A stretch of DNA of 64,000 nt, taken from NCBI GenBank assembly GCA_009760855.2, contig WPIO01000204.1, forward strand, positions 268,501 to 332,500. Direction: 5' to 3'. How positions within the stretch are numbered: the stretch's first letter is position 1; each line of letters opens with the position of its first letter. Both the position numbers and the translations under genes were made by a program. Origin of the DNA: Cristatella mucedo. Lineage: Eukaryota; Bryozoa; Phylactolaemata; Cristatellidae. Below the pieces are notes generated by a model. The model saw nothing but the letters and a program-made list of their open reading frames with translations. It ran no database searches and had not been told where the DNA came from. Shown piece by piece: positions 6,115 through 47,430 of the stretch.

Positions 6115-6965
6115 CATTAAAATTGCAAGATCCCATTAGGCTGGCGACTAAATTAAGGCCTGAAAACGCAGTTTACTTTTAATAATAGTAATGATAATGA
6201 TAATACGTCTCTTTTGCTCACTCAGAGAACTGAATCTCTTAAGTGTTGACAGTAATGTTAATCATGCTTATTCTGTTTATTAACTGCTTCTACTGCCCTA
6301 AGGTGCGGTGCCTGCTTGTAGTAATCTCAACTATGGCTTCTGCAGCAGCGTAGAGGGTGAAGGTTCTGAACACCCATTGAAGCTGTTTCCACAAACCCAG
6401 AATCGAATTGTGCAGGAGAGTTTTCTGTCCTTAAGCGGTGATTCCTTGCTCACGCACGAAGCCATAAACACAAGGATAAGCAGTCAGGTGGCTACGTAGG
6501 CCGTAAAAACGCAAAGAAAGAAACTTGATTTATTTTGCAGCATCTATTTGAAAATCGGAAATTCCGGGAGTGCCGAAACATAAGCCAGAAGTACGTTGTA
6601 CGGTTTTGAAGCACATAAGCCGTAAACACATATTTTCAAGTAATTTTATGATAGTTTAAGGAGCAGCCACTCGACTTCAGTCAGACGGGTTAGAGTTGCA
6701 CTTTCTGTCCTGAATGAAAAGTAAATTACATTTATTCAATCTAAAGCGGCGTGAGAATGAAGTGATTTATAGGCGAGTGACATAATGATGCTTAATAGAT
6801 AACACGTTCGCCTTTGCCCTTGACGTTCCAAGGTGGCGGTTTCCAGCAGCCACATGATTGGCCTGCATCTGGTAAGAGGCTCACGATATTTATTCCACCT
6901 CAGACAATTTACGTGCAATACGTGTTGAAAGGTCCGTAATACATTAGGCGAACAACTTATAAATA
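6115..6965 (+). repeat. Array unit 0, left partial copy
   Basis: Similarity to the unit begins near 6,115 (AAGATCCCATTAGGC, against AAGCGATCCCATATGGC elsewhere). It is interrupted by a LINE A tail and resumes at ATCATGCTTATTCTG and GTGCCTGCTTGTAGTAATC. About 1.4 kb of the unit is missing after 6,420. The text then rejoins at TCGGAAATTCCGGGAGTGCC and runs to the next landmark through GTTGCACTTTCTGTCCTGAA (6,692) and GTGCAATACGTG. Confidence 0.75.
6178..6262 (-). mobile_element. LINE A 3' end inside array unit 0
   Basis: An AATAATAGTAATGATAATGA tail is followed by CTCAGAGAACTGAATCTCTT, which is the minus-strand 3' hairpin of LINE A. Only about 85 bp are present. The array sequence continues directly at ATCATGCTTATTCTGTTTAT. 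Confidence 0.7.
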
Positions 6966-7211
6966 CGCCATCTACTGTGGATAATTCTGCACAGAGTGTA
7001 CCTGCGAGATCATGCAAGCAACTGCACTACAGCCACTAAGTACGATCACGCCAGAGTTCACCTGCAAGTGCTACTACATGCAATGTCCCTTTAACTTGTT
7101 CGCCCACTCACGGTGGCATCAACTAGAATGACAGCAACCGCTTGTTATTTGACTGTGCTTAATCAGCAAAATATGTAAAGTGCGGGCTGATAGATCAAGT
7201 TTCACGAGGGC

Positions 7212-8058
7212 TTATAATATAATAATAATGCACTTGATTAAGCACCCTCAGAGAACTCTATCTCTCTAGGCGTTTTACATTTGCTGCAATGGGAAATGCA
7301 ATTGAATGGTGCTTGATAAACAAACAAAACGAATAACGTTATTAGGGGTGACATGCACTCCGTCAGCATGCAAATGTGGTTATTGGCAGCATGCACAGTG
7401 TCAGCACGCATGAGCACATCAAGGACGAATTACAGGGACCGACTAAATGATGTCCTAAACAGGTGTGTTTGTAGGTTCTTTTAAAATGTGGTCAGGTCAG
7501 GGAATGTTCTGACTCAGGTCGGAAGGGAGTTCCAGGCTTTAGGATCATATGAACTAAATGCATGGTCTCTAAAGGATTTGAGGTTTGTAGGAGGTATTTG
7601 TAGACTGTTGGATTCCGAGAAGCGGGTGTTATGATGCTTGGCCTGATGGGGGAGTATATCTGAGAGGTAGGCTGGAGCCAAAGAATGAAGTGACCTAAAC
7701 GTGAGTGACAAAACCTTGAAGTCAATCCGTTGCTTAACTGGTAGCCAGTACAGGTCGGCGAGAATTGGTGTAATGTGGCAGCTGCTAATCTCATGACAGA
7801 CTAGCCTCACTGCAGAGTTTTGCATCAGCTGCAATCGCCTGATCGCACATGCTGGTAAGCCAGTAAGCAGTGAGTTGCTAAAGTCGAGACGGGATGTCAC
7901 GAATGCATGGACTAACTTGGACTTGGTATTCTTATCTAAACAAGCCCGAATTTTAGCAATTTTATGAAACTGAAAGTAGGCAGATTTGGCTGTGGAGCTG
8001 CTACTGTCGTAACGAGTAAAAGGAGGTTGCTTTGGAATATGACACCTAGATTTCGAAC
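7212..8058 (-). mobile_element. LINE A, 5'-truncated, minus strand
   Basis: The 3' end is at the left (AATAATAATGCACTTGATTA, then the CCTCAGAGAACTC hairpin). The body matches the other copies through the 3' UTR (GGGGTGACATGCACTCCGTC) and into the C-terminal coding region. A 128-codon minus-strand frame at 7,514-7,900 still reads the element's C-terminus, including [11 protein letters not shown] [50 protein letters not shown] and KAWNSLPT. It is truncated on the 5' side near the GGAATATGACACC motif, close to where the copy at 54.3 kb also ends. The array resumes at its right. Confidence 0.92.
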
Positions 8059-44712: not shown

Positions 44713-44909
44713 ACGTTTACATATTAATGTAGCATTATAGGTAGCAAATGCGACATAGTGAGTAGTGTTGCAATATGGCAGTTACCTACAGCGAGCCTAT
44801 CGGCCAACAACTTGTAAGCCTGTTTTTAACAGGTATTTTTTATCTGGCTGTTTGAAGCTAACCCATATTCAAATGTCCAAAATACTTGAAGCAAAGGACC
44901 TCTGATTAT

Positions 44910-47269
44910 GTCATCCACTGTGGCTCCTGCTATAAAGCGTACACCTGCGAGATCATCTGATCCAGTGCATTGGAGCCATCACATGAGATTGCGCTTAGGC
45001 TCACCTGCAGGTGCTGTTAGCCGCAATGTTACATCAACTTGTTTTGCCCACCCGCTGTGGCTGCTAATTCGATGGCTGGCATCAACTTATTACACAAAAT
45101 GGTTGGAAAACAGGTGAGCGATGTTTATCTTGCTGGTTCGGCCCCTTGGTCTACGCTGCTGTCCAGTAAGGTGGAATCTTTTTGCTTTTAAATTGATTTT
45201 TCCTTTGCAAAGCAATGTCTCATCTATATTCTGTCACTACAGCCATGCTGCTGCCTTAATTATTGCTGCTCTCTGGCTGTCTATACACTCCATTTAAGCT
45301 GCTGCCAGCAAGAATGGGCATGCTCTCGAAGTGGCATCTGGCAAAAGTATCCATGCCTTCTGGCTAAGCAATCCCTCGTGGCTCTTGCCAATAGTTTTGC
45401 AAATAGACTTTGATACTGCCTGCATACGAGATCTTTGCTATTTAGACCAGCCCACTTTAAGTGTTGCAAGGAGGTTTATCATGCTTATTCTATTAAATAA
45501 CTGTCTTTGCAGCCAGCGGATGTGGCACCTGCTTGTACTGTCCGCAAAATTTGCTTCTTGAGCTGCTTACAGGCTGGTAGTTTGAACACCCAGTGTGGCT
45601 TCTTCCATGAAGCTTGAATTGGCTTGTACTACCCATATAAGATAGCGTCTGCTAGCACAACTGCTAGCCACTCTAGGGACGGTCAGAAAAGATGGTCCTG
45701 CCCCTTTTTGCTTATAGTAATCGATTAACATTCATGAAAATTGTTTTTAACTCCAGCAAGTCTCAGTCTATCTGCCTATATACTGGCGATAGTGGCTGCT
45801 TTCAGTAAGTACAATTATGAGTGGCTGACCGACTTTGACCGTGTCATTCTGCTATTCTCAAATTCCCTGGCTGCTTCTAGTAGAACCAGCAGTACTTATG
45901 GTTCAACCCTCAGTTATTGTTGCTGCAAGCTAGTTATACCTGCTAGATCGTGAAACGCAAGTTGGTTCCAGCCTGCGTGTGGCTTGCACAACTTTTTTTC
46001 TTCAAGGATTACGACCTTTAGAATGCGATTCCTTCCAAAACGACTTCTGATCGTGATATTTCAATCAGTTTAGTCTCTCGACATATTTTAATTGTGTTTG
46101 GCTTACTGCTTTTGCATCCATTCACTTTAGGGGATGTCTTAAAACGTTTATTTGCTTAGTTCGCTTACCCCCTTGTGGCAGATTCCTGTAATACTTGCAC
46201 ATTTGGTAATAATTGCCATCACTGTGGCTGCGGAGAAAATAGAGTAATGTGGTTTTCCCGTTCGTTGCATCTAACGGTTGTAAACTTCCCGCTTGAATTG
46301 AAATGATTACTGCTGTTTTGCTAAAGATTTTAACCGGGCCTGGTATGCTGACTCTCTGTTGCCACCGGCAACATGACTGGCCAATTCTGGGTTTAGCCTC
46401 TCATGTGGCTTCCGCTTTAGGATATTATTGGTAATTTGTTATACCCTTTTTGCTGCAGTCAGCACTTATTTATAGCTTGTTCAGCATTACTTTCACTGAG
46501 GATTTCCCCAAGACTGGAATCTGAGGATCGCACCCAAAAAACAGCATTGTTTTATATCCCTGTAGACACGGCTTTCTTTCGAAGTGCTGATGCCTGAGCA
46601 CTCCTAACACTAATTAATAAAGGTAGTCAGTTAGTCTTTAGCTTGGTTTTTCTAACCTTGTGATAACGTAATTATTAAGTGCATTTGCGTGTAATACTAA
46701 GAAAGCTACTTTGCTGTCTCTCAACGGTTAGTATTGCTTCTATTGCACAGTCGTAAAATAATATAATGGAGATTTTTTAATCCATAGAAGGCATACAAAA
46801 AAGTAAGAATTAAAAGTAAGTTTAAAGAATTTTAAACATCAGCAAGCCAAGGTGCTCCAGGGACTCATTGAAATAAGCTCGAGGGTTGGGAGCATATATG
46901 CCGCTAAGTAATGGTCCATGGAGAATATGAGAGTGCTTTTTATAACAGCTAATCGACTTGTGGGAGAAGAGCTGGCTGTGCACCAGAAGTCACGAATGGA
47001 ATGTAACTCGCATTGGTAAGCTACTGCCAAATGAAATAAAATGACCATAAAGTGAGGGAAAATAATTTGACATAGTCATGTTTCTTGATAGTTAGCCCGT
47101 TTTGATTTTTTGAGCAGTATTGCTATGTGGCAGTTTGTCACAGCAATCCAATCGTTTAGCGGCTGGTGAAATGGTTTTAATATTTATTCCATCTCACACA
47201 GTTTATGTTTAATCTAAGGTGAAAAGCCAGTAATACCTGAAGCAAACCACTTAAATTATGTCATCAACT
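44910..47269 (+). repeat. Array unit 12 (small deletion)
   Basis: The unit starts at GTCATCCACTGTGGC. About 100 bp is missing near 45,090. Landmarks are GCAAGAATGGGCATGCTCTC (45,309), TACCCATATAAGATAGCGTC (45,632), TTCTAGTAGAACCAGCAG (45,875) and GCAGTCAGCACTTATTTATA (46,455). Length is 2.36 kb. It is more diverged towards its right end. Confidence 0.88.
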
Positions 47270-47430
47270 GCTGCTCTGGCAACAAAGTTTGTATCTCTAA
47301 GATCAAGCCACCCACAGCACTAGAGCCGTCGGGTCGGATCGTGCCCAAGTTCGCTTGCTTGTGCTGCTAGCTGCAACGTTACTGTAAATTATTTCGCCCA
47401 CCCATTGCAGCTTCAAAAGGAATAATGACT
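47270..47430 (+). repeat. Array unit 13, right partial copy
   Basis: It starts at GTCATCAACTGCTGC and continues through GATCAAGCCACCCACAGCAC, then CCCATTGCAGCTTC and AATAATGACT. It is cut there by a LINE B fragment. No array text is found beyond that fragment, so this is the right end of the array in this window. Confidence 0.88.

Follow-up and report, generated by a model that had tools for sequence, protein, structure and literature searches.

The window analyzed here is a stretch of 64,000 nucleotides from the Cristatella mucedo assembly GCA_009760855.2 (contig WPIO01000204.1, positions 268,501 to 332,500 of the forward strand). The contig, referred to as C116, has 357,490 bases, and the assembly has 572 Mb in 688 contigs. 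Positions 6238-47430 of the window are occupied by a non-coding tandem array, in which a unit of approximately 2.5 kb is repeated head to tail and is itself built largely of short monomers. Copies of a long interspersed nuclear element (LINE) and other insertions account for ~11.5 kb of the 41 kb (Table 1).

The 2.5-kb units and their order

Comparison of the window with itself, a check proposed along with the original prediction and made here by BLAST, identified collinear direct repeats at lags of ~2.5 kb and its multiples, up to 4.1 kb long and ~57-66% identical. For instance, 17228-21245 matches 22929-26936 at 66% over 4141 columns (E printed as 0.0), 32196-34800 matches 34696-37309 at a lag of 2500, and 23376-26958 is collinear with 32482-35997. 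The unit order was set by mapping two reference units over the window. A 12-unit profile matches one unit after the other across 6238-47430, every one on the forward strand, in agreement with the predicted 41-kb array of ordered same-strand copies; in 65 kb of contig flanks the same profile found no units, only pieces of ~55-130 bp. Units left out of model building were also recovered: a sub-model of 185 positions (R1) found U14 (47239-47418) at E 1.4e-29 and U02 (10563-10700) at E 7.5e-20, and another sub-model (R2) found U02 at E 2.7e-26. Tandem Repeats Finder (TRF, longest period 500) reported none of the 2.5-kb array in the window, as had been anticipated for exact-match tandem finders.

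The predicted thirteen copies proved to be 12 complete or near-complete and three partial ones rather than 13 equal ones, the ordered array itself being as described. With insertions excised, the near-complete copies measure 1891-2767 bp, the longest (U12) retaining a dispersed repeat and ~100 bp of the next unit. The predicted difference of 20-30% fits the distance of the units to their majority sequence (identity 0.69-0.79, i.e. 21-31% difference) but not that between copies, whose pairwise identity is 0.56-0.67 (33-44% difference). U01 and U13 are the most diverged units. The unit tree is nearly a star, with terminal branches of 0.25-0.41 and internal branches of at most 0.034, and with the end units excluded identity drops weakly with distance along the array, from 0.633 at lag 1 (nine pairs) to 0.587 at lag 9 (one pair). 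A head-to-tail unit of kilobase scale is typical of macrosatellites; the copies are neither near-identical nor homogenised, and because of their pairwise identity and the near-star tree the array is at most a former macrosatellite.

A search of the genome with the whole unit U07, which scores best candidates only and skips common words, found the unit at this locus alone, together with three short pieces of 71-98 bp on other contigs, all due to the LINE-tail stretch described below. The unit is thus apparently unique in the genome as far as this single whole-unit search goes. In the literature searched there was no report of a 47-bp satellite DNA in gastropods, which does not prove the family unpublished.

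Composition of the unit

The assignment of a monomer block to the unit is based on the lag spectrum, motif expectation maximization (EM), a cyclic hidden Markov model (HMM), raw-sequence bins and cross-validation. Compared with itself as a profile, the alignment of the 12 units (2530 columns present in at least seven units) yielded a total direct self-similarity signal of 6210 versus 1436 and 1394 in reversed-profile controls. For the unit profile, the lag spectrum reaches a power of 51.5 at period 46.0 (largest control values 9.4 and 6.6), and the raw-sequence autocorrelation averaged over the 12 units is highest at lag 47 (0.0128, standard deviation 0.0034). Motif EM found 24 copies of a 40-bp motif with the consensus TTGTTTTGACTATCTACTGTGGCTGCTGCCAGCAAGATTG, scoring 177 versus 60-65 in four permuted controls; eight of the 23 spacings between its copies equal 46 or 47 bp, and for twelve the nearest multiple of 46.5 is at most 2 bp away. 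The cyclic HMM is optimal at K=47 (280 versus 87-114 in seven permuted controls); it divides the unit into 55 rows, of which 40 are located at unit positions 304-2150. Reversed profiles served as controls for the lag signals, whereas permuted blocks were used for the cyclic models, because a reversed tandem repeat remains a tandem repeat.

The key test was cross-validation on the majority sequence, with three overlapping test windows per direction. Training on columns 300-1230 and testing on 1230-2160 resulted in z of 11.6, 13.2 and 10.3, compared to -0.4 to 3.1 for three permuted trainings and 1.7-2.7 for the reverse complement. Training on the second half and testing on the first yielded 8.1, 8.0 and 7.5, compared to 1.6 to 5.8 for two permuted trainings and 1.6-3.2 for the reverse complement. 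When the raw window was scanned in 400-bp bins, forward-strand bins in the monomer blocks mostly had z of 3-13, unit after unit; reverse-strand bins and those in inserted LINEs had z of at most 2.4, and values around the unit junctions were near background too. The unit is thus made largely of diverged shorter monomers. Corresponding positions of different units are more alike than monomers within a unit, as the units align over kilobases at 56-67%, while BLAST of the majority sequence against itself gives nothing better than E 0.21. The predicted long-unit satellite is confirmed in its 2.5-kb head-to-tail arrangement, but its inner tier had been missed: the unit is mostly a degenerate ~47-bp tandem repeat, and the array is therefore a nested (higher-order) satellite and not a simple long-unit one.

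Several results weigh against this reading. Eleven of the 23 motif spacings deviate by 2.5 to 14.5 bp from a multiple of 46.5, one of the permuted trainings reached z 5.8, as given above, and monomer models that were unsharpened or rigid were barely distinguished from controls. The bin-scan model was trained on the same units, making the scan circular if taken alone, and three of ~410 flank bin-strands exceed z 2.5 (1601 on the forward strand, z 5.2; 1201, forward; -9199, reverse). In the profile self-comparison the best single control window scored 15.1, more than the best observed one (13.8). Dinucleotide shuffles once gave a longer internal match than observed (18 versus 16), the number of internal matches being 7 versus a mean of 0.6 and a maximum of 3 in 40 shuffles. 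A middle tier of three monomers (138 bp) is hinted at by lag folding, with a fold score at period 138 of 2.52 versus 2.50 in control folds at other periods.

For the two forward-strand flank bins given above, which cover positions 1201-2000 of the window, z under the 47-bp model is 2.9 and 5.2, above background, and the unit profile has no match there.

Contrary to the prediction that the unit does not resemble a LINE, LINE matches make up about one sixth to one fifth of it, although they do not extend over its entire length as would be the case in a LINE-derived repeat. At the unit junction the majority sequence matches the 3' part of a LINE (29500-30547) in antisense (60.6% over 327 columns, E 3.7e-20; at the protein level 44-50% identity, E 5e-5), and at unit positions 497-585 it matches the 3' tail of this LINE in sense (67.7% over 93 columns, E 2.9e-7); the tail-like stretch (~497-588) is recognised by BLAST in eight of the 12 units. 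A further weak LINE match is located at unit positions 210-299. The unit profile also matches LINE copies, in a fixed arrangement. One weak antisense match to a LINE frame at the protein level (unit positions ~1481-1627, 35%, E 0.003) lies within the monomer block and may have arisen by chance. Since the alignment of the units runs on through the LINE pieces at the junction and in the tail stretch, these were most likely already part of the 2.5-kb block when its amplification began.

Among the LINEs inserted into the array, the longest contains an endonuclease domain (PF03372, E 2.7e-12 in Pfam). A protein search with its endonuclease frame yielded 33 matches of 27-40% identity, none of them a close relative. 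The copy at 42425-44697 is 66-67% identical to those at 28.2-30.5 and 37.4-39.7 kb. In a separate LINE of the window, at 60269-61078, the domain found is that of a reverse transcriptase (PF00078, E 1.7e-26).

Table 1. Units of the array, examples of their components, and insertions (window coordinates; ORF, open reading frame)
Feature	Position	Strand	Remarks
Partial unit U00	6238-6650	+	unit positions 960-1128, then 2278-2518, internal deletion; profile E 1.7e-32, 2.5e-18
Unit U01	6663-10276	+	split by LINE 7214-8059 and repeat sequence 8778-~9555
Unit U02	10277-13203	+	holds dispersed repeat 10700-10974; small internal duplication near 12662
Unit U03	13204-15404	+	~330-bp deletion
Unit U04	15405-17574	+	~350-bp deletion; (AG)n tract within
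Unit U05	17575-20135	+	uninterrupted
Unit U06	20136-23296	+	interrupted by LINE 21439-22582; ~250 bp of unit lost there
Unit U07	23297-25828	+	reference unit, 2532 bp, uninterrupted
Unit U08	25829-31948	+	interrupted by LINE 26959-30547
Partial unit U09	31949-32350	+	unit start and end kept, middle missing
Unit U10	32351-34857	+	uninterrupted
Unit U11	34858-37372	+	uninterrupted
Unit U12	39654-42421	+	extra dispersed repeat ~41863-42008; ~100 bp of next unit at end (42323-42421)
Unit U13	44698-46944	+	diverged end unit; profile match begins at 44707, unit position 113
Partial unit U14	46945-47430	+	unit positions 2-482; right array end
Monomer block, example in U07	23600-25446 (approximate)	+	unit positions ~304-2150, ~40 monomers
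Antisense LINE 3'-ORF fragment over unit junction, example U07/U08	25667-26014 (approximate)	-	unit positions ~2371-2530 and 1-186
~90-bp LINE 3'-tail-like stretch, example	23786-23880 (approximate)	+	unit positions ~497-588; dispersed copies, LINE 3' end
LINE copy in U01	7214-8059	-	self-comparison
LINE copy (8778-9367) in U01, then dispersed-repeat sequence	8778-9555	-	matches elsewhere reach ~9631
Dispersed repeat in U02	10700-10974		matches 61539-61813 and 5123-5390
(AG)n tract in U04	16957-17235		TRF
LINE copy in U06	21439-22582	+	self-comparison
Longest LINE copy, in U08	26959-30547	+	endonuclease domain within 27094-28134
LINE copy at U11/U12 junction	37373-39653	-	self-comparison
LINE copy between U12 and U13, older or distinct	42425-44697	-	self-comparison

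Coding potential, conservation and origin of the array

The longest open frame in the unit majority sequence has 86 amino acids and three array frames compared to Pfam gave nothing over the cut-off, in line with the prediction of a non-coding unit without a protein product. Period-3 conservation reached p<0.02 in just one of 40 windows. What speaks for a protein-coding past, and against a satellite, is that at two places frames of at least 35 amino acids overlap more often than in rotated controls (28 and 27 versus maxima of 23 and 22); indels at these two places do not keep the frame and do not occur in threes. A coding array was rejected, as period 3 is nearly absent, the three frames have no Pfam match and the indels at the two places break the frame. 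Apart from the two frame overlaps, no conserved open frame or codon periodicity of the kind expected in a tandem gene family was found. That the units descend from a tandem gene or exon cluster whose members turned into pseudogenes would agree with their kilobase scale, head-to-tail arrangement, preserved order and the two overlaps, but is extremely unlikely in view of the short longest frame, the near lack of period 3, the indels in the two stretches viewed, the lack of Pfam matches in the three frames and a monomer length of 46-47 bp, which is not a multiple of three.

The unit was also compared to structured RNAs. Rfam yielded no family, either at the gathering threshold or at E up to 5, and ARAGORN (bacterial code) found no tRNA. 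Of 122 alifold windows, the ten with the highest significance fold at just -1.2 to -5.2 kcal/mol; the z-scores of these windows are too high, since shuffled columns have a folding energy of approximately zero. On these three grounds an array of known structured RNAs or tRNAs was rejected. By eye, a tRNA-like head of a SINE was suspected at unit positions 300-490. Substitutions relative to the majority sequence are strand-symmetric, the ratios of the six complementary pairs being 0.96-1.10 (largest z 1.5).

CTCF-like sites (at most two mismatches to the consensus) number four in the 28.6 kb of the 12 units, each at another unit position, and seven in 82.5 kb of flanks, a small density difference given without a statistical test. 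An array of CTCF sites was rejected, as such sites are few and share no unit position; no site is conserved per unit as in DXZ4. Conservation along the unit is uneven: unit positions 285-560 have a mean pairwise identity of 0.661 versus 0.608 (z 4.3), and positions 2371-2532 one of 0.536 (z -4.5). The decay is therefore non-uniform and local constraint is possible, which also counts against a purely decaying satellite. The best-conserved part of the 12 aligned units corresponds, for example, to positions 23581-23856 of the window.

This conserved part, along with the 12 near-complete copies still standing in order, could be explained by a maintained non-coding array with an architectural or insulator function similar to DXZ4, in which the sequence drifts around a short core under selection. 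We regard this as very unlikely, given the scarcity of CTCF-like sites and their lack of a common position, the absence of strand asymmetry and of an Rfam family, and the weak folding of the top alifold windows. Hardly probable, too, is an origin of the array by repeated insertion, in tandem, of a single dispersed transposable element that carries a minisatellite, such as a non-autonomous Helitron-like element. The unit does combine a core of tandem repeats with a part that is not repetitive, and PMC5139131 reports some mollusc satellites with their flanks as parts of Helitrons, but the best candidates of the genome search place the whole unit at this array alone; the matches elsewhere are the three LINE-tail pieces, and no search for terminal structure was made.

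The array is very probably a fossil two-tier (nested, higher-order) satellite that has decayed. It is a known kind of non-coding repeat, of which it represents a very old and well-ordered member. Its first layer would have been an ancient array in which non-coding monomers of ~46-47 bp were repeated in tandem, and pieces of a LINE (the antisense 3'-ORF fragment and the ~90-bp 3' tail) would have landed in or beside it. A block of ~2.5 kb with ~40 monomers and the LINE pieces would then have been amplified into at least 12 head-to-tail copies (15 with the partial ones), presumably by unequal crossing-over or similar recombination. Later, homogenisation would have halted, leaving the copies to decay independently, and LINE copies would have inserted into the decaying units. 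The mean Kimura two-parameter distance is 0.524 among ten internal units versus 0.153 in a sample of five LINE copies, of which the array contains four. That the sample lacks another LINE copy interrupting the array, the older one at 42425-44697, is a point against this reading. Today the array is probably inert.

Satellites are usually observed when young and homogeneous. In this locus a single stretch of DNA would preserve a whole succession of events, from the monomer array through the insertion of LINE pieces and the amplification of the block to arrest, decay and renewed LINE insertion. This suggests that intergenic DNA which looks featureless may be a nested satellite in deep decay, missed by standard scans for tandem repeats, and makes the locus a test case for profile-based detection of fossil satellites.

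Neighbouring sequences and known systems

A second, unrelated tandem array of ~38 kb is located at ~196.8-234.7 kb of C116 (window coordinates ~-71.7 to -33.8 kb); from its end it is ~34 kb rightward to the window and ~40 kb to the 2.5-kb array. Its basic period is ~926 bp, with adjacent copies ~62-66% identical (57% at the left end); a dimer of 1.85 kb is ~85-88% identical in much of the array and 67-70% in its left part, and longer repeats reach 91% over 10.4 kb. In a 20.6-kb part the observed/expected CpG ratio is 1.02. The second array does not respond to the 47-bp model and matches the units by BLAST at one place, the dispersed-repeat leftover in U01. It is conceivable, if unlikely, that the contig preserves what is left of a satellite domain from an ancestral (peri)centromere. 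Both arrays together would then document several waves, one after another, in which satellites arose and died out in a lophotrochozoan; such waves would be readable because the older array escaped homogenisation and deletion.

To the right of the 2.5-kb array, the segment 48543-48959 of the window (reverse strand) contains a frame of 139 amino acids with an acidic stretch and no Pfam match. The mitochondrial COX1 has 11 in-frame TGA codons and is open under the invertebrate mitochondrial code. Among the 120 of its 7819 matches that were listed, gastropods, cephalopods and a nemertean reach ~81% identity and one cluster 95%; by these matches the host would be a lophotrochozoan, possibly a mollusc. 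Four COX1-like pieces with in-frame stops on other contigs (C166:4375626-4376390, C83:2826-3735, C549:2641741-2642010 and C299:634220-634540) are probably nuclear copies of mitochondrial DNA.

Among mollusc satellites, BIV160, DTHS3 and Cg170 have monomer lengths that, judging by their names, differ from that of the present array. According to PMC5139131, these three satellites are associated with transposable elements, and the array resembles them in that satellite and transposable-element sequences are intermixed. In Lathyrus, satellites are described in PMC7004042 as having arisen from tandem repeats inside long terminal repeat (LTR) retrotransposons; there, as here, retroelement sequence and tandem repeats occur in one amplified unit, but the source is an LTR retrotransposon, whereas here LINE pieces lie in or beside the monomers, with no sign that the monomers derive from the LINE. 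Mouse Dxz4 and primate DXZ4 are stated in PMC3491370 to differ in the conservation of sequence and length between adjacent units.

With the macrosatellites D4Z4 and DXZ4 the array shares a kilobase-scale unit arranged head to tail at a single locus, as far as searched; it differs in having no shared CTCF-like site, no open frame, far more diverged copies and no sign of homogenisation. Higher-order or nested tandem repeats are well known, for example from alpha-satellite higher-order repeats (HORs) and the subrepeats of ribosomal DNA spacers, and the copies of active HORs are nearly identical. The array resembles HOR satellites in that short non-coding monomers form a longer unit which is itself repeated in tandem, and is distinguished from them by monomers of 46-47 bp, of which there are ~40 per unit, by LINE fragments within the unit and by copies that are just 56-67% identical.

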